The notes under the pieces: model-generated
Databases searched by the model: none
What the model was told of the DNA's origin: nothing
Seen by the model: the letters and a program-made list of their open reading frames with translations, nothing else
Shown here: one piece after another, positions 7,376 through 64,000 of the stretch
Numbering within the stretch: the stretch's first letter is position 1
How the letters are laid out: each line of letters starts with the position of its first letter
Made by a program: the position numbers and the translations under genes
Assembly: GCF_003633895.1 (NCBI RefSeq)
Contig: NZ_RBID01000015.1
Location: forward strand, 1 to 64,000
Direction: 5' to 3'
DNA from: Vogesella indigofera
GTDB lineage: Bacteria; Pseudomonadota; Gammaproteobacteria; Burkholderiales; Chromobacteriaceae
Length of the DNA: 64,000 nt

Positions 7376-7394
7376 GCGGCCAACGTTGGCCGCA
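7376..7394. repeat. Palindromic form of the dispersed motif
   Basis: GCGGCCAACGTTGGCCGCA; the first 18 bases are a perfect palindrome. It lies between the HD-GYP gene and the LysR gene and contains the exact 13-mer at 7382-7394. Confidence 0.85.
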
Positions 7395-14151: not shown

Positions 14152-14228
<77 letters not shown>

Positions 14229-14333: not shown

Positions 14334-14410
<77 letters not shown>

Positions 14411-17029: not shown

Positions 17030-17064
17030 AAAGGTTGGCCGCAACAGCGTTGCGGCCAACCTTT
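17030..17064. terminator. Inverted pair of the dispersed motif between mdfA and metG
   Basis: AAAGGTTGGCCGCAAC (17030-17045), loop AGC, then the perfect complement (17049-17064). Two exact 13-mers (17031-17043 and 17051-17063) face each other and form a 16-base stem in the 101-base gap between the two genes. It may act as a terminator or insulator, although the T-tract is short. Confidence 0.75.
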
Positions 17065-20716: not shown

Positions 20717-20736
20717 TGCGGCCAACGTTGGCCGCA
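20717..20736. repeat. Perfect 20-bp palindromic form of the dispersed motif
   Basis: TGCGGCCAACGTTGGCCGCA, identical on both strands, two bases after MITE copy B. It contains two overlapping exact 13-mers. Confidence 0.9.
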
Positions 20737-41928: not shown

Positions 41929-42945
41929 TCACGGCGCGTTCTTGATCACCAGTCGCGTCCAGCGGCTGACCCAGGCGGCGGTCTTGTGCTGCATCGCCTT
42001 CAGGTCCGGGTTGCTGAAGCTGGCCGGCTGCGCGGCGTGCTTGAACACCGGCGCCAGCGCCACGCCGGCGACCGCCGGGTACATCCACATGCTGGTCTGC
42101 AGCTCTTTCTGCACCGCCTCGCCGCGCAGGAAATCGACGAACTGCTGTGCCAGCTGCGGCTGCAGCCCGCCCTTGACTTTGGCCACACCCTCCACCTGCA
42201 TGAACACGCCGCCTTTCAGCAACAGGTTGGCGGTCGGCGATTCGGCCAGTTTTTCCTTGCTGTAGAACACTTCCGCCGCCGGGCTGGTGGCGTAGCTGAC
42301 CACGATCGGGCGCGCGCCGCCGTTGCGGGTGAAGTCGGTGTAGTAGGCCTCGCTCCAGCCCTTGGCCACCTTCAGGCCGTTATCGCGCAGCTTGCCCCAC
42401 CACTGGAAGGCGCCCTCCTCGCCCTTGCCGGCGATGGTCGCCAGCAGGAAGGCGAGGCCGGGGCTGGAGGTCGCCGGGTTTTCCACCACCAGCAGGTTCT
42501 TGTAGGCAGGCTTGGTCAGGTCGTCCAGCGTCGCCGGCAGTGGCAACTTGCTGTTAGCAAACCAGGCCTTGTCGATGTTGAGGGTGACATAGCCGTAATC
42601 GATGGCCACCGCGCCCGGCAGGCTGGCCACCGCCACGCTGCGGCCAACCTTGCTGCTGGTGGCCTCCAGCACGCCGGCGGCGTTGGCCTTGCCGATCAGG
42701 GTGTTGTCGATGCCGTACACCACGTCGGCCACCGGATTGGCGCGGGTCAGAATCAGCTTGTTGAGCATCTCGCCGGCATCGCCGCCCTTGATGATGGCCA
42801 GCTTGGCGCCGCTTTGCTTCTCGAACTCGGCGATGCGCTCTTTCGGCAGGCTGAACGAGCTGTGCGTCATCACCCGCAGCTCCGCGGCCAGGGTGCTCAG
42901 GGAAACGCCGGCCAGCGCCAGCAGCAGTACGGACTTCTTGAACAT
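41929..42945 (-). CDS. thiB: Thiamine ABC transporter, substrate-binding protein
   Basis: 338 residues from the ATG at 42945 (AGAGG nine bases upstream; the ATG at 42954 leaves no spacing). A signal peptide ends at T-L-A-A. The mature part starts E-L-R-V-M-T-H-S-S-F and has D-V-V-Y-G-I-D-N-T, V-A-I-D-Y-G-Y-V and S-P-A-A-E-V, as in ThiB/TbpA. It is the periplasmic receptor for thiamine, TMP and TPP. It is the first gene after the TPP riboswitch. It holds a dispersed motif (42639-42651) read as Lys-Val-Gly-Arg. Confidence 0.93.
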   Translation of the reverse strand: MFKKSVLLLALAGVSLSTLAAELRVMTHSSFSLPKERIAEFEKQSGAKLAIIKGGDAGEMLNKLILTRANPVADVVYGIDNTLIGKANAAGVLEATSSKVGRSVAVASLPGAVAIDYGYVTLNIDKAWFANSKLPLPATLDDLTKPAYKNLLVVENPATSSPGLAFLLATIAGKGEEGAFQWWGKLRDNGLKVAKGWSEAYYTDFTRNGGARPIVVSYATSPAAEVFYSKEKLAESPTANLLLKGGVFMQVEGVAKVKGGLQPQLAQQFVDFLRGEAVQKELQTSMWMYPAVAGVALAPVFKHAAQPASFSNPDLKAMQHKTAAWVSRWTRLVIKNAP

Positions 42946-43010
42946 TGCAGACATCCTCTTTTGGTAATGGTGCCGACCAAAAGAAGAAGCGGGACGCGGA
43001 CTGGCCGCGC

Positions 43011-43091
43011 ATCACGCTCCCTCCGCTGGCATGACCCAGATCAGGTTCTGGGGTATCTCTCAGTCTGCCTGCGGCAGACACCCCCGGTGAT
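43011..43091 (-). ncRNA. TPP riboswitch (THI element)
   Basis: On the - strand the conserved blocks appear in order: GGGGGTG, CTGAGA, ATACCC, GAACCTGATCTGG, GTCATGCCAGCG and GGAGGGA. ATCAC (43087-43091) and GTGAT (43011-43015) close the P1 stem. The aptamer ends about 65 bases before the thiB start. With TPP bound, thiBPQ should be shut off. No strong terminator lies between aptamer and ATG, so control is probably at translation. Confidence 0.95.
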
Positions 43092-43101
43092 CGAAGCGGC
43101 G

Positions 43102-43130
43102 AGTATAGCGCGTTGCGCGGCATTGCTTAA
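43102..43130 (-). promoter_or_regulatory. Promoter of the thiBPQ operon
   Basis: TATACT (-10, 43107-43102) and TTAAGC (-35, 43130-43125) with a 17-base spacer place the start a few bases before the riboswitch. Confidence 0.6.
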
Positions 43131-43153
43131 CCGCCGCGGCGCGCGGCCGGCGC

Positions 43154-43188
43154 AAAAAAATCGCCCGCCCCCAGTGCGGGAACGGGCG
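43154..43188 (-). terminator. Terminator-like hairpin upstream of the thi promoter
   Basis: CGCCCG ... CGGGCG stem (43162-43188) followed on the - strand by A and seven T (43160-43154). No - strand gene ends here, so it may insulate the thi promoter from antisense transcription of the katG side. Confidence 0.5.
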
Positions 43189-43443
43189 TGTCTAGCAGTA
43201 TGCCGACAGAAGCAACGGGACAGACTCTCAAGCGAGGCGCAGCCACCACAGCTACCCTCGCCGACTATTGAGCAATTGCCGTGCCAGCAAAAAGCGCCGC
43301 CATCACTGCCAATTCGCCACTTTGCCGCTATAAAAAGAATCACCACGACATGGCGCGTGCACCAGCACGGCGCAAATGGCACCCGATACGTGCGGCATGG
43401 CAGATAAATAGCAAAAAGCTAACAAATCAAAAACAACAATCAA

Positions 43444-43473
43444 TTTAACAAATGCATAACCGGTATCCATAAT
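43444..43473 (+). promoter_or_regulatory. Candidate promoter of the leader ORF and katG
   Basis: TTTAAC and CATAAT with an 18-base spacer in an AT-rich stretch, about 35 bases upstream of the small ORF. Confidence 0.4.
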
Positions 43474-43506
43474 CCAGTCATCAAGCGATCTGCAAGGAGC
43501 AAGACC

Positions 43507-43575
43507 ATGAAACGTTTCTTCCGCCAGCACATCACCCTCGACGAGATGTGGGCCAACCTGGTGTGGATGCAGTAA
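43507..43575 (+). CDS. 22-residue ORF upstream of katG (candidate leader peptide)
   Basis: ATG-to-TAA frame of 22 codons, starting MKRFFRQH and ending L-V-W-M-Q, with AAGGAG seven bases upstream. The product is an amphipathic peptide with a basic start and two Trp. It lies 161 bases before katG on the same strand, behind a candidate promoter. The strong ribosome site argues that it is translated. I do not recognise it; it could be a small membrane-associated protein or a leader that affects katG expression. Confidence 0.55.
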   Translation: MKRFFRQHITLDEMWANLVWMQ

Positions 43576-43580
43576 GCCGC

Positions 43581-43593
43581 AACGTTGGCCGCA
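43581..43593 (+). repeat. Dispersed uptake-like motif (CG form)
   Basis: AACGTTGGCCGCA, five bases after the stop of the 22-codon ORF. Confidence 0.8.
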
Positions 43594-43703
43594 ACCCGCG
43601 TGATGGCCAGTGCCCGGCAACCAGCCGGGTGGCCGGCGATGCTGCTCAGATCAGCAGTCAAGTCAACCCCAGCCAACCGCAGCGGACCCGCCACCTGGCG
43701 TGA

Positions 43704-45929
<2,226 letters not shown>

Positions 45930-55688: not shown

Positions 55689-56422
55689 CGCCCGCCCCCC
55701 AAGGTTGGCCGCGCCCGCCCGCCGGCCAGCTGTGCGCCCAGCACCAGCAGCAGGTACAGCAGCGTGGCGACGGCAAAGGCCTGGAAGGTCAGCAGCGTCT
55801 CGCTCTCCACCTGGCGCGAGCTGTACGACAGTTCGGCCACGCCGATGGCCATGGTCAGCGAGGTGTTCTTGATCACGCCCAGATACTGGCCCAGCAACGG
55901 GCGGCGCACCACGCGCAGCGCCTGCGGCAACACGATGTGGCGGAACACCTGGCGCGGCGTCATCCCCAGCGCCAGCGCCACCGCGTGCTGCCCCGGCGCG
56001 ACACTGCGGATGCCGGCGCGGATTTCCTCGGCGACAAACGCCGCGCTGTACAGCGACAGCGCGATCAGCGCCGCCACAAACTCGAACGACGGCCAGGCCA
56101 GCGTCCAGCCGGCCAGCGTCACCTCGTGCGGCGCATTCAGCCACAACATCACCGCTTCCGGCAGCAAGCCGGCCACGCCGAAGTACCACAGCAGCAGCTG
56201 CACCATCAGCGGCGTATTGCGATGCAGCGACAGAAAGGTCCGCACCGCCAGGCGCACGCTGCGCCAGCGCTGCTCATAACCGGCGGCCAGCAGCACACCC
56301 AGCAGCGTTGCCAGCCCGCACACCAGCAGCGCCAGCCACGCCGTCAGCGCCGCGCCCTGCAGCATCCAGCCGATGAAATGCGACTCCAGCCAGCCATAAC
56401 CCAGCCATGCAGGCGGTGTCAT
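55685..56422 (-). CDS. Polar amino-acid ABC transporter permease (first)
   Basis: 245 residues. Family loop A-L-G-M-T-P-R-Q-V-F-R-H-I-V-L-P-Q-A-L-R-V-V-R-R-P and the N-T-P-L-M-V-Q motif identify a GltJ/HisQ-type permease. It forms a heterodimer with the next gene, which starts in its stop codon. An AAGGGAG site precedes the start. The gene comes 75 bases after the binding protein, across a hairpin. A variant of the dispersed motif (AAGGTTGGCCGCG, about 55701) is near the 3' end. Confidence 0.92.
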   Translation of the reverse strand: MTPPAWLGYGWLESHFIGWMLQGAALTAWLALLVCGLATLLGVLLAAGYEQRWRSVRLAVRTFLSLHRNTPLMVQLLLWYFGVAGLLPEAVMLWLNAPHEVTLAGWTLAWPSFEFVAALIALSLYSAAFVAEEIRAGIRSVAPGQHAVALALGMTPRQVFRHIVLPQALRVVRRPLLGQYLGVIKNTSLTMAIGVAELSYSSRQVESETLLTFQAFAVATLLYLLLVLGAQLAGGRARPTLGGGR

Positions 56423-56443
56423 GATTTACTCCCTTCAGCAAAG

Positions 56444-56468
56444 AAAAACCGCCAGGCAAGCCCGGCGG
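56444..56468 (-). terminator. Hairpin between the binding-protein and permease genes
   Basis: CCGCCAGGC / GCCCGGCGG stem followed on the - strand by five T. It is probably a partial terminator that keeps the binding protein in excess. Confidence 0.65.
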
Positions 56469-56497
56469 CAGCACGAATCAGCCGAGTCCGTGGCGGG

Positions 56498-57301
56498 TCA
56501 GGCCTTGTCGCCGATCCTGAAATCACGCGGCAGCGGCGCCTTGGTGCCGGGGCCGAACCAGTGGTCGTAGATCTTTTTCGCTTCGCCGTTTTTCTCCAGC
56601 CCCAGCAGCACCTCGTTGACCACCTTCACCAGCCGCGCCTCGCCCTTGGGCAGGCCGATGGCCTGGAATTCGCGGGTCAGCGTAAACGGCGCGATCTCGT
56701 ACTTGTCCTTGTCCGGTGCATTGGCCAGCAGGGCCGCCAGCTTGGAGCCGTCCTGGGTGATCGCGGTCACGTTGCCGTTGCGCAGCGCGGCAAACGCCAG
56801 CGGCGTGTCGTCGTAGGACACCACCTTGGTGGCCGGGTATTTCTCGCGCAGCGTGATCTCCTGCGTGGTGCCCTTGTCCGCACCCACGCGCAGGCCGGCC
56901 AGCTGTGCCGGCGTGGCCAGCGTGCCCTTGCGGCTGATGAACTGCTGGCCGGAGGCAAAGTACGGCAGGCTGAAATCGACCTGCTTGGCGCGATCTGGCG
57001 TCACGGTGAAGTTGGCCGCAATCAGGTCGGCCTTGCCCGACACCAGCAGCGGAATGCGGTTGGCCGGATTGGTCGGCACCAGCTCCAGCTTGACGCCGAT
57101 CTTGGCGGCGATGTGGCGCGCCACGTCCACATCCAGCCCGGTGATCTGGCGGCTCTGCGCGTCGAGGAAACCGAACGGCGGGTTGCTGTCGAAGGCGGCG
57201 ACACGCAGCACGCCGGCTTTCTTGATGTCGTCGAGGCGGTCGGCCAGGGCGGAGGTAGCGGTCACGGCCAGCAGCAGGGCCAGGGTCAGTTTGCGTTTCA
57301 T
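56498..57301 (-). CDS. Amino-acid ABC transporter substrate-binding protein (SBP family 3)
   Basis: 267 residues with a signal peptide cut after S-A-L-A (about residue 20). The SBP_bac_3 fold is clear: I-K-K-A-G-V-L-R-V, P-P-F-G-F-L-D-x-x-x-x-x-I-T-G-L-D-V-D-V-A-R, G-K-A-D-L-I-A-A-N-F-T-V-T-P-D-R and G-A-D-K-G-T-T. The site resembles glutamate/aspartate (GltI or PEB1) receptors, so an acidic or polar amino acid is the likely ligand. It is the first gene of a three-gene operon that lacks an ATPase. Confidence 0.92.
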   Translation of the reverse strand: MKRKLTLALLLAVTATSALADRLDDIKKAGVLRVAAFDSNPPFGFLDAQSRQITGLDVDVARHIAAKIGVKLELVPTNPANRIPLLVSGKADLIAANFTVTPDRAKQVDFSLPYFASGQQFISRKGTLATPAQLAGLRVGADKGTTQEITLREKYPATKVVSYDDTPLAFAALRNGNVTAITQDGSKLAALLANAPDKDKYEIAPFTLTREFQAIGLPKGEARLVKVVNEVLLGLEKNGEAKKIYDHWFGPGTKAPLPRDFRIGDKA

Positions 57302-57476
57302 GGTCGGCTTTCATTCAGAGGTCAGGAGAAGATGGCCCATCATAAAACGATGACAAAGCCATACAAACAAATGAATTTTGTATTCTTTATCCACTAAAGG
57401 AATAACCGCACCCGGCCCCGCCGGCAGCGCGGCGGGCTAAACTGTGGGTATCGGCATTGCGCCACGGGACACCCTC

Positions 57477-57821
57477 ATGAACCGCCTGCTTGTGTTGCTG
57501 AGCCTCGCTTTGCTCAGCGCCTGCGCCACTTACCAGTGGCGCCACGCCACCCGCTACGACGCCAACTTCGACGAAGACAGCTTCCAGTGCAAGAAGGAAG
57601 CGGCGCAGGCCTTTCCGCCGCTGGCGGGCGAGCGCATCATCCGACCGCCGCGCTTCAGCCCGTCCTGGTTCTGCTCGCCTGCTGGCACCCGCTGCAGCCG
57701 CACGCTGCCCTACTGGCAGGACGCCGAAACCGAGAGCTACGACATCAACGAACGCGCGCGCGACGACCTTTACCGCAGCTGCCTGCAGGCACGCGGCTGG
57801 ATCCGCTACCGCGTCGACTGA
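57477..57821 (+). CDS. Small lipoprotein of unknown function
   Basis: 114 residues from the ATG at 57477. The signal has lipobox LSAC (Cys16). The mature part has four more Cys and is rich in Arg, Asp and Tyr (T-Y-Q-W-R-H-A-T-R-Y-D ... C-L-Q-A-R-G-W). The final C-x-x-A-R-G-W is common in small periplasmic lipoproteins of proteobacteria that carry disulfides. The function is not known. It is a single gene upstream of the PhnD-type operon, divergent from the amino-acid transporter. Confidence 0.8.
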   Translation: MNRLLVLLSLALLSACATYQWRHATRYDANFDEDSFQCKKEAAQAFPPLAGERIIRPPRFSPSWFCSPAGTRCSRTLPYWQDAETESYDINERARDDLYRSCLQARGWIRYRVD

Positions 57822-57866
57822 CGCCTGCGCCGCCTCCGACCGCACCGTCGCGGCCTTGCAGGCGAC

Positions 57867-57879
57867 AAGGTTGGCCGCA
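57867..57879 (+). repeat. Dispersed uptake-like motif (GG form)
   Basis: AAGGTTGGCCGCA, 46 bases past the lipoprotein stop. Confidence 0.8.
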
Positions 57880-57976
57880 AGCGCCGCGCACGGCCGGCAA
57901 TGCCGGCGCGCCACCCCCAGTTTTATGCTGACGCGATTAGGCGCGCGCGCCGATCTGGCATAAAATACGGCCACTT

Positions 57977-58026
57977 TGGCGGCTTATCGTCCGCCTGCAC
58001 CGAGCAGTCCGCGCGACTGCTTTTTT
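57977..58026 (+). terminator. Terminator in the leader of the PhnD-type operon (candidate attenuator)
   Basis: GCAGTC-N5-GACTGC followed by six T (58004-58026), preceded by a GGCGG ... CCGCC hairpin (57979-57996) and a TAAAAT box at about 57961. A second GGCGG ... CCGCC pair lies just after the T-run. It ends 47 bases before the first gene. It either terminates the lipoprotein transcript or attenuates the operon. Confidence 0.65.
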
Positions 58027-58072
58027 GATGGTGGCGGCCTGTTGCCCGCCTAACCCGAAAGACAATCCGCTC

Positions 58073-58918
58073 ATGAACATTGCCAAACTGTCCGTGGCAG
58101 GCCTGCTGCTGGCCGCCGCTACCCTGTCCCACGCCGAAGCGCTGCTGAAAGTCTCCGCCATTCCCGACGAAGCCCCGACCGAGCTGCAACGCAAGTTCGC
58201 GCCGCTGGGCCAGTACCTGGAAAAAGAGCTGGGCATGAAGGTGCAGTTCGTGCCGGTCAGCGACTACGCCGCGGTGGTCACCGCGCTCAACGCCGACCAG
58301 ATCGACATGGCGTGGCTGGGTGGTTTCACCTTCGTGCAGGCCAGCCAGCGCGGCAAGGTGGTACCGCTGGTGCAGCGCGAGGAAGATTCGCGCTTCACCT
58401 CCAAATACATCGTCAATGCCGACAGCGGCATCAGCAAGCTGCAGCAGCTGAAGGGCAAGAGCTTTGCCTTCGGCTCCGCCTCGTCCACCTCCGGTCACCT
58501 GATGCCACGCTACTTCCTGCAAAAGCAGCACATCAAGCCGGAAACCTTCTTCAAGAGCGTCGGCTACTCCGGCGCGCATGACGCCACCGTGGCCTGGGTT
58601 GCCTCCGGCAAGGTCGACGCCGGCGTGCTGAACGCCTCGGTATGGGACAAGCTGGTCGAAGCCGGCAAGGTCGACCAGAGCAAGGTCAAGCTGCTGGGCA
58701 CCACCCCGCCGTACTTCGACTACAACTGGACGGTGCGCGGCAGCCTGGATAAAAAACTGCAGCAGAAAATCCAGCAGGCGTTCCTGAAGCTGAATGCGGC
58801 CAACCCCGAGCACAAAGCCATTCTCGATCTGCAACGCGCCAGCAAGTTCATTCCGACCAAGGCCGCCAACTACAAGGGCATCGAAGCCGCTGCCAAGGAA
58901 GCCGGCCTGCTGCAATGA
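58073..58918 (+). CDS. PhnD-family ABC transporter substrate-binding protein (putative selenate/phosphonate type)
   Basis: 281 residues from the ATG at 58073. A signal peptide ends at S-H-A (about 21). The mature start L-K-V-S-A-I-P-D-E-A-P-T-E-L-Q-R-K-F-A-P-L-G and D-M-A-W-L-G-G-F-T-F-V-Q-A are typical of the PhnD subgroup annotated as putative selenate-binding proteins rather than true phosphonate receptors. It starts an operon with an ATPase (ATGA overlap) and a doubled permease. The ligand is an oxyanion by family; selenate is only a suggestion. Confidence 0.85.
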   Translation: MNIAKLSVAGLLLAAATLSHAEALLKVSAIPDEAPTELQRKFAPLGQYLEKELGMKVQFVPVSDYAAVVTALNADQIDMAWLGGFTFVQASQRGKVVPLVQREEDSRFTSKYIVNADSGISKLQQLKGKSFAFGSASSTSGHLMPRYFLQKQHIKPETFFKSVGYSGAHDATVAWVASGKVDAGVLNASVWDKLVEAGKVDQSKVKLLGTTPPYFDYNWTVRGSLDKKLQQKIQQAFLKLNAANPEHKAILDLQRASKFIPTKAANYKGIEAAAKEAGLLQ

Positions 58919-59709
58919 GCCTGCGTTTTGACGCAGCCAGCCTGAGCCTAGGCGGCAGCCGCATCCTGCAGCCGCTGTCGCTGCAACTGGCGCAGGGCGA
59001 GCAGGTGGCGCTGATCGGCCCGTCCGGCGCCGGCAAATCGTCGCTGCTATTGCTGGCCAACAGCTGCCACCGTCCCGATGGCGGCAGCGTAGAGCTGCTG
59101 GGGCAGGACCCGTGGCAGCTGCGCGCGCCGGCACTGCGCCGGCTGCGCAGCCGCATCGGCAGCGTGTACCAGCATCCGCCGCTGCCGGCGCTGCAGCGGG
59201 TGGTCACCGCGATCGGCGCCGGCCAGCTCGGCCAGCTGTCCACGTTGGCCGCACTGCGCCGCCTGCTGTGGCCGCAGGATGTCGCCGCCATCCGCGACGC
59301 GCTGCAACGGGTGCAGCTGGGCGACAAGCTGTGGCAGCGCTGCGACCGCCTGTCCGGCGGCCAGCGCCAGCGCGTCGGCATCGCCCGCGTGCTGTACCAG
59401 CAACCCGAACTACTACTGGCCGACGAGCCGGTATCGGCGCTCGACCCGCGCCTGGCCGACGATACCGTCGCGCTGCTGTGTGCCGATGCCCGTCAGCGCG
59501 GCGCCACGCTGCTGGTCAGCCTGCACTCGGTGGAGCTGGCATTGGCCCACTTCCCGCGCCTGATCGGCCTGCGTGACGGCCGCATCGCCTTCGACCTGCC
59601 GCGCGCCGAGCTCACCCCGTCGCTGCTGACGGCGCTGTACGCCGGCGAACAGCCGGCCACCGCCGACGAGCCGGCGCTGGGCAGCGGCATCCGGATCGCG
59701 CCATGCTGA
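58915..59709 (+). CDS. PhnC-type ABC transporter ATP-binding protein
   Basis: 264 residues overlapping the binding protein gene by four bases and the permease gene by seven. Walker A is GPSGAGKSS, the signature is LSGGQRQR, Walker B is LLLADEPVSALD, then the His switch in S-L-H-S-V. The family resemblance is to PhnC (phosphonate/oxyanion importers). A variant of the dispersed motif (CACGTTGGCCGCA) lies at 59241. It powers the permease at 59703. Confidence 0.93.
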   Translation: MSLRFDAASLSLGGSRILQPLSLQLAQGEQVALIGPSGAGKSSLLLLANSCHRPDGGSVELLGQDPWQLRAPALRRLRSRIGSVYQHPPLPALQRVVTAIGAGQLGQLSTLAALRRLLWPQDVAAIRDALQRVQLGDKLWQRCDRLSGGQRQRVGIARVLYQQPELLLADEPVSALDPRLADDTVALLCADARQRGATLLVSLHSVELALAHFPRLIGLRDGRIAFDLPRAELTPSLLTALYAGEQPATADEPALGSGIRIAPC

Positions 59710-61277
59710 GCGCCAGCCTGCACGACCCGGCCCGCGCGTCGCGGCTGGCCGGCCTCATCGCCACGCCGCTATTGCTGCTGGCGGCGATGGTCTACACCGG
59801 CTTCAACCCGCTGCTGCTGGCCGAGGGCGACACCGCCGGCACGCTGTGGCGCTTTGTCGCCGACTTCTTCCCGCCGAGCACCGACGGCGCCTTCCTGCAC
59901 GACATGCTGCGCGAAACCGCCACCACGCTGGCGATTGCCAGCAGCGGCCTCGCGCTGGCGGTGCTGATCGGCCTGCCGCTGGCGCTGCTGACCAGCCGCG
60001 CGCTGGACCGCGACACGCTGTGCGGCGAGGCGCCGGCCCGCGGCTGGCAGTGGCTGCAACGTCTGCTGCGCGGCGTCTTGATCGTGCTGCGCGGCGTGCC
60101 GGACCTGGTGTGGGCGCTGCTGCTGGTACGCGCCGCCGGACTTGGCAGCCTGCCGGCGGTGCTGGCGCTGGGGCTGGCCTACGGCGGCATGCTGGGCAAG
60201 GTCTACGCCGAAATCCTGGAATCGCAGCCGCCGCAGGCCGCGGCGGCACTAGCTGCCAGCGGCGCATCGCGGCTGGCCATCTTCGGCTACGCACTGCTGC
60301 CGCAGGCGGCGACCGAGCTGATCAGCTATAGCGTCTACCGCTGGGAATGCGCGATCCGCGCCTCGGCGGTGATGGGCTTTGTCGGCGCCGGCGGCCTCGG
60401 CCTGCTGCTAGATACCTCGATGCGGATGCTGAACGGCGGCGAAGTCGGCAGCCTGCTGCTGCTGTTCGCCGCGCTGGTGGCGCTGACCGAGGGCGTCAGC
60501 CGCGTCAGCCGCGCCGCCATCCACAGCCGCGCCGGTGGCGCCGGACTGGCCGCCGGCACGCTGCTGCTGCTGACCCTGTCGCTGCTGTGGCTATGGCCGC
60601 AATGGCGCGAGGCCCCGTTCGATGTCACCGGGCTGTGGCGCTTCGCCCAGGAATTCCTGCGGCCAACCTTGCGTGGCGACTTCCTCGTCCAGGTCGGCAG
60701 CGGCGTGCTGGAAACGCTGCTGGTCTCGGCGCTGGGCAGCGCGCTGGCCTTCATCGGCGGTGCGCTGCTGGCGCTGCCGGCCAGCAACCGCGGCCCGCGC
60801 TGGCTGCGCGCGCCGGTGCAATTGCTGCTCAATTTCCTGCGCGGCACGCCGGACCTGCTGTGGGGCGCGCTGGCAGTGCTGGCGCTGGGCCTCGGCCCGG
60901 CCGCCGGCGTGCTGGCACTGGCGGTGCACACCAGTGGCGTGCTGGGCCGGCTGTTCGCGCAGACATTGGAAAACATGCCACCAGACGCGGAAGCCGCGCT
61001 GCGCCACAGCGGCGCCGGCCGCCTCGCCTGCCTGTGCTACGGTCTGCTGCCGCAGGCGCTGCCGCAGTGGATCGCCTACACCCTGTACCGCTGGGAAAAC
61101 AATATCCGCATCGCCGCCATCCTCGGCCTGGTCGGCGCCGGAGGCCTCGGCCAGCAACTGTATCTGGCGCTGTCGCTGTTCCAGTTGTCCAACGCCGCCA
61201 CGCTGATCCTGGCCATGCTGCTGCTGTCGTGGGGGGTGGAGAGCTTCAGCCGCTGGCTGCGGCAGAAGCTGCTATAG
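59703..61277 (+). CDS. Fused double PhnE-type permease
   Basis: 524 residues made of two PhnE-like permease domains in one chain, about residues 1-270 and 275-524. Each has a loop motif ending in Y-R-W-E followed by G-F-V-G-A-G-G-L-G or G-L-V-G-A-G-G-L-G, and V-L-R-G-V-P-D-L-V-W or L-R-G-T-P-D-L-L-W. Most PhnE proteins are single domains that dimerise; here both halves are encoded as one gene. It is the last gene of the operon and contains a dispersed motif (60658-60670). A motif-pair terminator follows 17 bases later. Confidence 0.92.
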   Translation: MLSASLHDPARASRLAGLIATPLLLLAAMVYTGFNPLLLAEGDTAGTLWRFVADFFPPSTDGAFLHDMLRETATTLAIASSGLALAVLIGLPLALLTSRALDRDTLCGEAPARGWQWLQRLLRGVLIVLRGVPDLVWALLLVRAAGLGSLPAVLALGLAYGGMLGKVYAEILESQPPQAAAALAASGASRLAIFGYALLPQAATELISYSVYRWECAIRASAVMGFVGAGGLGLLLDTSMRMLNGGEVGSLLLLFAALVALTEGVSRVSRAAIHSRAGGAGLAAGTLLLLTLSLLWLWPQWREAPFDVTGLWRFAQEFLRPTLRGDFLVQVGSGVLETLLVSALGSALAFIGGALLALPASNRGPRWLRAPVQLLLNFLRGTPDLLWGALAVLALGLGPAAGVLALAVHTSGVLGRLFAQTLENMPPDAEAALRHSGAGRLACLCYGLLPQALPQWIAYTLYRWENNIRIAAILGLVGAGGLGQQLYLALSLFQLSNAATLILAMLLLSWGVESFSRWLRQKLL

Positions 61278-61293
61278 CCTGCCGGCTGGCTTG

Positions 61294-61337
61294 AAAACAA
61301 TGCGGCCAACCTTGGGAAAGGTTGGCCGCATTGTTTT
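61294..61337 (+). terminator. Terminator built from an inverted pair of the dispersed motif
   Basis: AAAACAATGCGGCCAACCTT (61294-61313), loop GGGA, then its perfect complement ending in TTGTTTT (61318-61337). Both arms hold an exact 13-mer. The 20-base stem with a T-rich end directly follows the permease gene. Confidence 0.93.
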
Positions 61338-61717
61338 GGGGGCGAGTTGTCGGCCGGAGCGGTGAGCCATGCCTGAATGACTTCTGTTGTCGGCCACAAG
61401 TGGAAGTTTAGGTCACCACATGGAGACTTTGGACAATGAAGCTATGCAGTTCCCTTGACCTTGAACGCTGATCGCTGCTTTTTAAAACTACAAACTACCA
61501 CTTCGGGTCGCGTGCCGTTCAGACCACGCCGACATTCCGAGAGCCCAGCGCTGGTGTAACTCATCCGTCACCATTTCAAATTAAGCACCTTAGCTACCCT
61601 CCCGTATACCGATAGATCATGCCTGGCGGGCTGGACTTGGTGCCTAGGAGTACTACTCTAAGTCATAGGAAAGTGACGTTTCCATAATGTCACAAAATGA
61701 GGCGAGAGGAGCACATC
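61338..61717. other. AT-richer intergenic region before the orphan membrane gene
   Basis: This 380-bp stretch is visibly less GC-rich than its surroundings. I see no ORF, repeat-family member or RNA in it. It probably arrived with the gene that follows. Confidence 0.4.
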
Positions 61718-62275
61718 ATGGCGGCCGAGAGGACAAATGAGGCACTCCGAGGGGAGACCAAGCAAGGCCAAGAGGGCAAAGAGCCTCCACACTGGGCTGC
61801 CAGCATCTTCGGCGGAATGGCCCTTGTTCTGTTTGTGACCATCCTCGTCTCGCCGGTCTTCGTGTTGCTCATCGTACGAGCCATGTACCATTTAGCCCAA
61901 ACTAACACGGAGCTAAACCCACTGTTCACCTGGTCCAGCATGACCATGCTTGGACTTATTTCTATGCGTTTTCTTGCCATTTACTTCGGTGCAACCGTGA
62001 TGCTAGCTGGGACAGCAGTGGCGTTCCATGCACTGGAGGGGCAGAGTCAAGCCAGCGGAGAAGTTCCTGGAGGGTTCAAAGCAGCACTCGCTACCACCTC
62101 CCCCGGTTTACTCGCGGTCGCCGCTGGTGCGGTCGTGATCTGTGTGGCGCTCATCACCCACATTCCGAACCAGTATCAGGGAGAGCCCCCCACGAAAAGC
62201 TCGACAACCCAGCCCCCTGTGTCAGACGTAGCACAACACCTCGATGATGCCACGCCGCCTCCGCCCTCTCCATGA
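61718..62275 (+). CDS. Orphan membrane protein, probably foreign
   Basis: 185 residues from the ATG at 61718 (GAGGAG seven bases upstream); an earlier ATG at 61697 is less well placed. Three hydrophobic helices (about 32-58, 78-100 and 125-148) lie between a Lys/Glu-rich N-terminus and a Pro/Thr/Ser-rich tail ending in P-P-P-P-S-P. Base use is less GC-rich than in neighbours and no dispersed motif lies within it. I do not recognise the family. It stands alone between the oxyanion transporter and the Lrp/LysE pair. Confidence 0.7.
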   Translation: MAAERTNEALRGETKQGQEGKEPPHWAASIFGGMALVLFVTILVSPVFVLLIVRAMYHLAQTNTELNPLFTWSSMTMLGLISMRFLAIYFGATVMLAGTAVAFHALEGQSQASGEVPGGFKAALATTSPGLLAVAAGAVVICVALITHIPNQYQGEPPTKSSTTQPPVSDVAQHLDDATPPPPSP

Positions 62276-62449
62276 AAGGAACCTTATGCTTCTCTCTCCC
62301 CTTGCTTAGGTTATTCGGCATGCCTGTTGCTCGGTCTGGTCAGTCAATGACCTCCACAAAGCTCTTTGAGTCCAACAGTGCGCTTTACGAGATGCTAACC
62401 AATTAATCAGCAACCGTTTTGTCGCGCAACCTGTACTGGCCTGCCCCCC

Positions 62450-62893
62450 CTATCTTGGCGGTAACACCGGCCGGTTGCTGAGCGGGGTCGACAGGATGAT
62501 GCTGGTGCGCGTCTCGCCCAGATCGTTCAGCCGCGACACCAGCAGCTCCAGATGCGACACGTCGCGCGCCAGCACGCGGAAAACGTAGGAATCGACCCCG
62601 GTCACGTGGTGGCACTCCTGCACTTCCGCCATTGCGGCCAACCTTTCCAGCAGCACCTTCTTCGCCGGTTGCGGTACGGTGATGCCGACCAGCGCCGACA
62701 GCGCGAAGCCGGCCTTCAGCGGCGCCACCGCGGCGTGGTAGCCGCTGATCACCCCCGCCTCTTCCAGCCGTTTCACCCGCTCCGATACCGCCGGCACGGA
62801 CAGCCCCACCGTCTGCGCCAGTTCGGTCAGCGATTGCCGCGCATTGTCCTGCAACGCCTGCAGGATCAGCCACGATTTGCCATCCACTTCCAT
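62450..62893 (-). CDS. Lrp/AsnC-family transcriptional regulator
   Basis: 147 residues from the ATG at 62893 (AAAGG eight bases upstream); an in-frame TTG at 62899 is the alternative. Helix-turn-helix L-Q-D-N-A-R-Q-S-L-T-E-L-A-Q-T-V-G-L-S-V-P-A-V-S-E-R-V-K-R-L-E and the RAM fold with C-H-H-V-T-G-V-D-S-Y-V-F-R-V are complete. It is divergent from a LysE-type exporter, the usual setting for an amino-acid-sensing activator of export. It holds a dispersed motif (62633-62645) read as Arg-Leu-Ala-Ala. Confidence 0.92.
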   Translation of the reverse strand: MEVDGKSWLILQALQDNARQSLTELAQTVGLSVPAVSERVKRLEEAGVISGYHAAVAPLKAGFALSALVGITVPQPAKKVLLERLAAMAEVQECHHVTGVDSYVFRVLARDVSHLELLVSRLNDLGETRTSIILSTPLSNRPVLPPR

Positions 62894-63018
62894 TTGCAAG
62901 CCTTTCTGCTGTTTGACCTAAGAATATAAACCCGACATCGCATTCTGGCGAAGATACCTCATGGCGCCCCCGGCGCTGCCGTCGCACACTAGGCCATCAC
63001 ATCGAGGAGCAAGACGCC

Positions 63019-63648
63019 ATGCAAAGCAGCCACCTGTTTGTCGAGGCCGCCCTTATCGGGCTGGCGATTGCCGCACCGGTCGGGCCGGTGGGTTTGTTGT
63101 GCATCGAGCGCACCCTGCGCCAGGGCGCGGCCACCGGCTTTGTCACCGGGCTGGGCGCCGCCACCGCCGACGCCATCTACGCCGCGATCGGCGCCGCCGG
63201 CCTCGGCACGCTGATCGCGCTGCTGACGCGCCTGGCGACACCGCTGGCGCTGGCCGGCTGCGTGCTACTGCTGTACCTGGGCATCGCCACCCTACGCCGC
63301 GACGCGGCCAGCCACGCCGCCCGTACCGCCAGCGTACACAGCCTGCCGCGCGCCTACAGCAGCGCGCTGGCGCTGACGCTGACCAACCCGATGACCATCC
63401 TGTCCTTCATCGCCATCTTCGCCGGGCTGGCCGGCGCGCGCACGCCGTCGCTGGCCGATAGCGTGCTGATGGTGGTGGGCGTGTTTGCCGGTTCGGCGCT
63501 ATGGTGGCTGCTGCTGGCCTACGGCGGCGGCCGGCTGCTGTCGCGGCTGGGCGCGCGCGGGCAGCTGATGGTCGACAAGGCCTGCGGTGGATTGCTGATC
63601 GGCTTTGCGCTGTTGCTGGCGTGGCGCACGCTGGCAGTATGGCTCTGA
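63019..63648 (+). CDS. LysE-family translocator (amino-acid exporter)
   Basis: 209 residues with six hydrophobic helices. The family start (A-x-x-I-G-L-A-I-A-A-P-V-G-P-V-G-L-L-C-I-E-R-T-L) and G-L-G-A-A-T-A-D-A-I-Y, then the N-P-M-T-I-L-S-F motif, are typical LysE/RhtB. It exports amino acids or analogues. GAGGAGCAAG precedes the start. Pairing with a divergent Lrp regulator suggests substrate-induced export; the substrate is unknown. Confidence 0.92.
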   Translation: MQSSHLFVEAALIGLAIAAPVGPVGLLCIERTLRQGAATGFVTGLGAATADAIYAAIGAAGLGTLIALLTRLATPLALAGCVLLLYLGIATLRRDAASHAARTASVHSLPRAYSSALALTLTNPMTILSFIAIFAGLAGARTPSLADSVLMVVGVFAGSALWWLLLAYGGGRLLSRLGARGQLMVDKACGGLLIGFALLLAWRTLAVWL

Positions 63649-63747
63649 GCCTGTACCGCCAGCGGCATGACGGGGAACAGCGGTGGGAGAAGGCTCAGCT
63701 CAGGGGAGGATGGCTAGTGCCGGCCTGCACTAGCCGCCGGCGATAGA

Positions 63748-64000
63748 TCAGAGCAGCTGCTGCAGGCGGCGGGTCAGCGCGCCGGGCTGCCACTGTTGCG
63801 GCCCCAGCTCGCGCAGCGGCCAGATCCCGGCCAGACTGTTGCAGAGAAACACCTCTTCCGCAGCCAGCACTTGCGGTGGAGACAAGCGCAGTTCGCGCAC
63901 CGTCAGCCCAAGGTTGGCCGCAGTGTCGATCACGCAGGCGCGCATGGCACCGGATACACCGCAGCGATCCAGCAGCGGCGTCAGCAGCTCACCACCCTGC
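63748..64000 (-). CDS. pabC: Aminodeoxychorismate lyase, C-terminal part (5' end outside window)
   Basis: About 84 codons of the 3' end are present and the frame is open to the right edge. The end of a class IV aminotransferase-fold protein is seen: G-E-L-L-T-P-x-L-D-R-C-G-V-S-G-A-M-R, then A-E-E-V-F-L-C-N-S-L-A-G-I-W-P-L-R. This E-x-F-x-C-N-S-L-x-G-x-x-P pattern is that of PabC, which splits aminodeoxychorismate to p-aminobenzoate and pyruvate for folate synthesis. A dispersed motif is at 63910-63922, read in reverse as Ala-Ala-Asn-Leu. Related D-amino acid transaminases are less likely. Confidence 0.88.
   Translation of the reverse strand, partial: QGGELLTPLLDRCGVSGAMRACVIDTAANLGLTVRELRLSPPQVLAAEEVFLCNSLAGIWPLRELGPQQWQPGALTRRLQQLL

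Follow-up and report, generated by a model that had tools for sequence, protein, structure and literature searches.

A predicted intrinsic terminator formed by two facing DUS-like words behind an ABC transporter operon of Vogesella, and a candidate DUS family in the Chromobacteriaceae

The element at positions 61294-61337 is very probably an intrinsic (Rho-independent) terminator of a phosphonate-type ABC transporter operon, formed from two facing copies of a DUS-like word, TGCGGCCAACCTT(G). Judged from the sequence, this terminator is ordinary in kind and well supported, and it is potentially bidirectional. For the word, the most likely identity is a DUS, which would be recognized by a ComP-type minor pilin, and the word family of the Chromobacteriaceae to which it belongs appears to be an undescribed DUS family. 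The window, i.e. the whole stretch of DNA that was analysed, comprises 64,000 bases (contig C4, bases 1-64000) of a Vogesella genome (Chromobacteriaceae) of 3,618,773 bases in 20 contigs.

The hairpin and the transporter genes

The features discussed below are the following.

58073-58918, plus strand: gene of a phosphonate-type substrate-binding protein (PF12974)
58915-59709, plus strand: ATPase gene (PF00005)
59703-61277, plus strand: ABC transporter permease gene (codon-model gene call; two PF00528 stretches)
60659-60670, plus strand: single word copy inside the permease gene (exact 12-mer match)
61294-61313, plus strand: 5' hairpin arm, made up of the A-tract AAAACAAT and then GCGGCCAACCTT (arm complementarity, exact 12-mer match)
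61314-61317, plus strand: hairpin loop GGGA (inverted-repeat search)
61318-61337, plus strand: 3' arm of the hairpin, AAGGTTGGCCGC (the word on the minus strand) followed by ATTGTTTT
17031-17063, no strand assigned: the other exact inverted pair of the window, back-to-back, AAGGTTGGCCGC AACAGCGTT GCGGCCAACCTT, between two minus-strand genes

The genes for the binding protein, the ATPase and the permease (58073-61277) form a probable operon. The inverted repeat behind them has arms of 20 nt each (61294-61313 and 61318-61337), which are 100% complementary and enclose a loop of 4 nt. Exact copies of the 12-mer GCGGCCAACCTT lie at 61302-61313 (+) and 61318-61329 (-), with their tails facing. Inverted-repeat and 12-mer searches thereby confirmed what had been described in the first-pass annotation, namely two exact facing word copies, a perfect 20-bp stem and a GGGA loop. 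A T-rich tail right after the ABC permease gene had also been described; the placement is right, the stem beginning 16 nt past the TAG stop codon of the permease gene, but the tail is itself the 3' end of the stem and is paired with AAAACAAT. This tail is ATTGTTTT on the plus strand, the mirror tail for the minus strand is AAAACAAT, and each consists of eight A/T-rich bases. The T-tract of ATTGTTTT is broken by a G, and GGGGG comes right after the stem. The predicted RNA fold of 61278-61350 has an energy of -46.6 kcal/mol (z -7.57), and 0 of 200 shuffles folded equally well. A simple terminator scan of 56000-64000, which requires T after the stem, returned 6 sites (5.5 in shuffles) and lacked 61294-61337, because the T-tract sits inside the stem.

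Once the polymerase has passed the end of the permease gene, the GC-rich 12-bp word pair would form a hairpin in the nascent RNA. The U-rich tract AUUGUUUU would still be in the RNA-DNA hybrid during this folding, and the transcript would be released. On the other strand, the mirrored AAAACAAT tract would act in the same way, and the element would then stop transcription from both sides. We infer from these features and from those of the other pairs described below that termination actually takes place here.

The permease gene was found in seven of the 13 Vogesella genomes, this one included; the remaining six gave short weak matches only. Among the seven, four have a pair at this place, one has a single copy and two have no exact copy. 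In G004 and G003 (94-95% identical) the pair lies at the same place. The tracts AAAACAAT/ATTGTTTT are replaced in G004 by AAAACGAT/ATCGTTTT, a compensatory change that preserves pairing, while the pair of G003 has one mismatch and one G-U. The pair of G006 (80% identical) has one imperfect copy and a different tail and begins 5 nt past the stop codon. G011 carries one word copy past the permease gene, and G001 and G005 carry no exact copy there, their downstream DNA being different. The long residence in the genome that had been proposed for the motif is thus borne out for the word, which occurs in 13 of 13 Vogesella genomes and has dialects in sister genera, and in part only for this single pair. 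The word copy inside the permease gene (60659-60670) is kept in G004, G001 and G005 and missing in the more distant G006 and G011. For the back-to-back pair at 17031-17063 a fold of -30.4 kcal/mol (z -6.75) was predicted, and both of its copies are retained in the relatives G001 and G005.

Other observations concern the surroundings. The region downstream of the hairpin, 61350-62450, is without a called gene and without an exact word; a 185-codon open frame at 61718-62275 has no Pfam match. Elsewhere in the window are a TPP riboswitch at 43000-43095 (-) and two tRNA genes, at 14155-14228 and 14337-14410 (-), which score equally.

The word and its inverted pairs in the genome

Within the window 36 matches to the word were found at no more than one mismatch, where 0.69 are expected and 0 of 100 shuffles reach that number. 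Nineteen of the 36 are exact, and 13 of the remainder are a second form, GCGGCCAACGTT. The genome contains 1050 exact copies of GCGGCCAACCTT, balanced between the strands (515 plus, 535 minus); a control with the word written backwards gave 0. All 13 Vogesella genomes carry the exact word in 485-1050 copies each and the second form in 118-477 copies per genome, and the exact word has 0-9 copies in 48 other genomes of the family. Inside the stretches around pairs in this genome, 42 of 77 single copies lie in genes.

Variation was also seen within the genus. G002, G007-G010 and G012 have about half of the exact 12-mer count of this genome. In a sample of G008, the one genome sampled among these six, the density of the CGGCCAAC core is close to that of the stretches from this genome and the 3' bases are less strictly kept, which may mean that Vogesella is not uniform in its dialect. 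The second form overlaps itself as an 18-bp palindrome, GCGGCCAACGTTGGCCGC, which occurs in the window at 7376-7393 and 20718-20735 and is frequent in relatives; this palindrome may have arisen by collapse of a facing pair, or may be a variant that is tolerated.

Conservation of the window copies was compared with relatives, and these comparisons are not independent, since the same copies recur over the relatives: exact copies in aligned genes were kept in 12 of 12 cases with G004, G001 and G005, where control 12-mers reach 0.56-0.57, and, for the distant G006 and G011, in 0 of 2; intergenic exact copies were kept in 14 of 22 (control 0.37-0.44) and, for these two distant relatives, in 1 of 4. 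The second form was kept in genes in 7 of 11 cases with G004, G001 and G005, which is no better than the control (0.55-0.58), and between genes in 6 of 6 cases with the three close relatives.

Inverted pairs with copies within 20 nt of each other number 50 facing and 93 back-to-back in this genome, and controls gave 0. By an arithmetic estimate, about 1.6 pairs of each orientation are expected if 515 + 535 copies are placed at random in 3.62 Mb. The first-pass annotation had named a lack of excess of inverted pairs elsewhere as evidence against its reading; the excess is present, with 50 + 93 pairs. The placement sample consisted of all 50 facing and 53 of the 93 back-to-back pairs. Genes were called with a home-made codon model trained mainly on Vogesella, and a pair was counted as lying in a gene at an overlap of at least 70%. 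The 50 facing pairs were distributed as 33 between convergent genes, 16 between tandem genes and 1 between divergent genes, with 0 in genes. The 53 back-to-back pairs comprised 27 convergent, 23 tandem and 0 divergent cases, 3 at stretch edges and 0 in genes; 11 of the 53 have a loop that belongs to a single repeated element, part of which lies in long regions where no gene was called, and the surplus of back-to-back pairs in this genome is in part due to this element. As the stretches were picked for their pairs, the fair comparison is that of convergent with divergent placement, which for facing pairs is 33:1 (p 4e-9). In the unselected window, convergent and divergent intergenic regions are equally common (11 and 11).

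Facing pairs in named loci, among the matches listed, were placed as 60 convergent, 34 tandem, 3 divergent and 6 at an edge (n=103); back-to-back pairs in the same loci, which did not guide the fetch, as 5 convergent, 6 tandem and 0 divergent among the matches listed (n=11). The named genomes with facing pairs, among the matches listed, are Vogesella species, Beta proteobacterium L13 and two MAGs labelled Neisseriaceae; Pseudogulbenkiania subflava (Chromobacteriaceae) has one facing-pair locus among the matches listed. A looser rule was applied to samples of five other Vogesella genomes (G008, G011, G006, G001 and G005), in which cores CGGCCAAC on opposite strands and no more than 40 nt apart were accepted, overlaps included. 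It gave 28 pairs, with 7 convergent, 14 tandem, 0 divergent, 1 at an edge and 6 inside called genes.

A clustered non-coding repeat with a back-to-back word pair was observed on contig C2 at 42858-45337 (locus L160, 4860-7340), with further occurrences at C2 68924, 233107, 233686, 348019 and 348459 and at C3 124762. The loop of its pair is AAACC....GGCTT or similar. A 280-base query from it gave 13 matching pieces in 5 stretches of this genome and no match in those named loci and stretches of relatives that were searched. An integron attC array was considered for C2 42858-45337 and rejected: the repeat units are clustered and non-coding, without cassette-like genes, and three loci of the repeat, searched against Rfam, matched no family.

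The pairs might be a by-product of uptake-driven copying that piles the word up in harmless non-coding DNA, and be without any function in transcription. Two observations favour this view. Called genes cover 82% of the window, yet 7 of its 15 unpaired exact copies lie outside them, which shows an intergenic enrichment of single copies too; and under the looser rule 6 of 28 pairs lie inside called genes. Permissive space would, however, not separate convergent from divergent regions, yet facing pairs do so 33:1. This explanation is further opposed by three properties of the pairs described next, i.e. mirrored tails that are absent from singles, the direction of the tails between tandem genes, and covariation of the first extension bases beyond the word, and it is considered highly improbable.

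Tail statistics for facing pairs were taken over 82 gene ends, convergent ones being counted from both sides, and left out 8 pairs in intergenic regions of more than 1500 bases; the same limit was used in the direction test. At positions +1 to +10 past facing pairs the frequency of T is 0.01, 0.27, 0.73, 0.11, 0.52, 0.66, 0.70, 0.72, 0.33 and 0.34, and in other intergenic DNA T has a frequency of 0.197 and A of 0.206. Upstream of facing pairs the T tail is mirrored by A, with 0.50-0.66 at the mirror positions of +5 to +8, whereas on the same side of the 77 single copies A has 0.13, 0.25, 0.23 and 0.22 at these positions. Pairs between convergent genes have both tails. Between tandem genes (n=36), T after the pair exceeds A before it in 24 cases, is lower in 5 and equal in 7. 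Runs of at least four T were found at 33 of 82 gene ends with facing pairs, 10 of 64 with back-to-back pairs and 19 of 105 without the word. Back-to-back pairs thus show no excess of T runs over the control gene ends and only a weak T-tail, and for this reason some pairs may act otherwise than as classic terminators.

The bases that extend the stem also pair. Over extension positions 2-8 taken together, none of 2000 partner shuffles pairs as well as the 50 facing pairs do. The covariation comes from positions 2 and 3 (0 of 2000 shuffles each); taken singly, positions 4 to 8 of the facing pairs show none, 363 to 1474 of 2000 shuffles reaching the observed pairing. The extensions of 39 back-to-back pairs are better paired than in all but 2 of 2000 shuffles, a test from which 14 back-to-back pairs with loops of at least 15 were omitted. 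Covariation of orthologous pairs in the named loci was left uncounted, as these loci had been fetched by the exact pair pattern and are therefore biased.

A different role for the hairpin would be to protect the 3' end of an mRNA whose termination occurs elsewhere (e.g. by Rho), or to block opposing transcription, without being a terminator. The very stable stem, the GC content of the window (0.648) and the weak T-tails of many back-to-back pairs are in keeping with this role. An RNA stabiliser needs no T-tract, though, and T and A tails that depend on gene direction are a signature of intrinsic termination, and we regard such a role as quite improbable. The terminator reading of the first-pass annotation, with its parallel to Neisseria, is upheld by the placement at gene ends, the mirrored or T-biased tails and the covarying first extension bases, the tail evidence being of the kind reported in the accessible part of PMC1852404. 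Points against this reading are the scan that lacks the site, the G-broken T-tract with its five following G, the two permease-bearing relatives without an exact copy, the ordinary T runs of back-to-back pairs, extension positions 4 to 8, and the pairs inside called genes under the looser rule. The facing copies are proposed to be kept at gene ends because they would be both uptake tags and terminators.

Dialects, receptor pilin and uptake channel

Samples of 60 kb from sister genera contain related words. GTTGGCCGAA (TTCGGCCAAC) is over-represented in G050 and more weakly in G060, and CTCGGCCAAC in G046, all with the same core; the samples of G014 and G029 yielded no over-represented word with the CGGCCAAC core. 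In whole genomes TCGGCCAACCTT was counted 40-551 times in 10 of the 48 family genomes outside Vogesella. These represent six genera, namely g5, g6, g7, g9 and g10, plus one of ten g2 genomes (G022). Its count is 0-3 in the 13 Vogesella genomes and in the other 38 genomes of the family. Facing pairs in either dialect were found in 13 of 13 Vogesella genomes (4-51 pairs), in 9 of the 10 genomes with TCGGCCAACCTT (2-39 pairs) and in 1 of the 38 others (one pair). The G046 sample has eight facing pairs of the dialect of that genome, and all eight are flanked by convergent genes; AAAA precedes 7 of them and TTTT follows 6. The G050 and G060 samples hold one pair each, both between tandem genes.

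Contig C11 of this genome encodes, at 94160-94585, a pilin of 142 aa, the candidate ComP. Its strongest matches among solved structures are major pilins, via the shared N-terminal helix. The C-terminal part matches the ComP chains 2m3k (4.4e-7, residues 43-121) and 5hz7 (2.3e-6). A match to 2nba (7.9e-10, residues 40-137) was also obtained, an entry named only as a prepilin-type protein, which we take to be a ComP. The genome's other match to the ComP_DUS profile, PF16732, gave no match to a ComP chain among solved structures. PF16732 was detected in 0 of 14 control genomes and in all 61 genomes of the family, in 60 of them above the cut-off; every one of the 61 has some match at E 0.001 or better, general pilin similarity included. 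The profile was rejected as a marker of the word, as it is also present in family genomes without the word, and its presence in 61 of 61 says nothing about the word. The uptake channel ComEC (PF03772) was found in 11 of the 13 Vogesella genomes, the misses being G009 (330 contigs) and G010 (88% complete).

ComP residues were compared in 50 of the 61 genomes, i.e. all 23 with the word and 27 of the 38 without it, and the rows of G057 and G045, which resemble other pilins, were kept in the counts. K70 was present in 21 of 23 genomes with the word vs 0 of 27 without, T103 in 20 of 23 vs 0 of 27, D104 in 22 of 23 vs 5 of 27, and G106 in 21 of 23 vs 5 of 27; since a scan for positions at which the two groups differ was used to choose these columns, they are a lead and not a test, and shared ancestry accounts for part of the tracking between residues and word. 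The ComP of G022 has the N-T-D-x-G form and lacks the K. Within g2, G022 is the sole carrier of TCGGCCAACCTT (225 copies) among ten genomes examined and has the only N-T-D-x-G form among nine ComP sequences compared, which makes it a natural case in which to study how the system is gained or lost.

The general features of a DUS were found for the word, that is, abundance on both strands, conserved copies in genes, and genes for a ComP-type pilin and ComEC. Another abundant signal, for instance a REP-like element or a site bound by a nucleoid protein or a methylase, with pairs that terminate by coincidence, is considered unlikely. Points in its favour are that nothing in the literature covered joins Vogesella and an uptake sequence, that the ComP-type profile PF16732 matches genomes without the word too, and that GCGGCCAACGTT is kept in genes like control words. 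They are set against the strand-balanced 1050 copies, the many single copies in genes, and the orthologous in-gene copies kept without exception in three close relatives, though in neither case in distant ones. Also against another signal are the distribution of dialects largely by genus, as in the Neisseriaceae, the ComP-like residues of which some track with the word, and the presence of ComEC in most Vogesella genomes. Reading the word as a DUS, we infer that it serves in actual uptake and that ComP contacts it.

The following joint proposal is accordingly put forward as likely. The Chromobacteriaceae would have their own DUS family with an invariant CGGCCAAC core, read by ComP orthologues in which K and N-T-D-x-G track with the word, and the pairs would be terminators both in Vogesella and in one or more of the dialect genera. 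The dialects proposed as part of it are TGCGGCCAACCTT for Vogesella, GCTCGGCCAACCTT for G046 and CTTCGGCCAACC for G050 and G060, each of the latter being one sampled genome per sister genus.

Comparison with known systems

REP/BIME-type palindromes are repeated inverted units between genes, and a REP-like unit is confined to intergenic DNA. Vogesella likewise has repeated inverted units between genes, but its unit is mainly a single 12-mer and also occurs in genes (42 of 77 singles).

No report of the word as an uptake sequence was found in the literature covered, to which the over-represented words of Table S1D in PMC3630211 do not belong. Titles retrieved for natural transformation of Vogesella include nothing on the topic, a search for an uptake sequence of Pseudogulbenkiania gave only PMC3630211, and none of the titles among the matches listed for fragments of the word concerns uptake sequences. 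In the accessible text of PMC3630211 (2013), Vogesella has 0 occurrences, and no obvious DUS is reported for five genomes (Laribacter, Lutiella, Pseudogulbenkiania and two of Chromobacterium). The same text states that BLAST found no ComP in C. violaceum, and it dates the origin of the system later than the divergence from C. violaceum. The abstract of PMC12061091 calls the reading of the word by ComP enigmatic.

If the proposal is true, sequence-specific uptake with dialects also exists in the Chromobacteriaceae, in addition to the two families known for it, Neisseriaceae and Pasteurellaceae. In that case the ComP/DUS system would either be older than the split between Neisseriaceae and Chromobacteriaceae or have arisen twice, whereas the accessible text of PMC3630211 dates its origin after the split. 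A second word, unlike the first, would make it possible to test how ComP reads its target. Natural comparisons exist within the family, with G022 and its dialect beside nine other g2 genomes without the word, and ComP residues changing alongside.

Pairs of uptake words in predicted terminators of Neisseria and Pasteurellaceae were described by Kingsford (2007, PMC1852404). According to the accessible part of that paper, A and T tails flank the stem; pairs between convergent genes have both, and those between tandem genes have mainly the T-tail. Close inverted DUS are also treated as terminators in the part available of PMC2397512 (2008). The DUS-pair terminators of Neisseria (GCCGTCTGAA facing TTCAGACGGC) and the USS-pair terminators of Pasteurellaceae resemble those of Vogesella in that close inverted copies of a word form hairpins past genes. 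As far as these sources go, they are alike also in their A- and T-tails and in the dependence on gene direction. Vogesella differs from Neisseria in the word and in the bacterial family, and in orientation: facing pairs are far commoner in Neisseria, according to the accessible text, whereas in this Vogesella genome back-to-back pairs are commoner, 93 vs 50. The DUS dialects of the Neisseriaceae and the words of the Chromobacteriaceae share hundreds to at least 1000 copies of a 10-12-mer per genome, a largely genus-wise distribution, an invariant core, inverted pairs and ComP homologues. In every dialect of the Neisseriaceae positions +6 to +8 are CTG and position +10 is A, according to the part of PMC3630211 available; the core CGGCCAAC of the Chromobacteriaceae is without CTG and departs from this rule. 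If the proposal is true, pairs of an uptake word have been recruited as terminators again, with another word.
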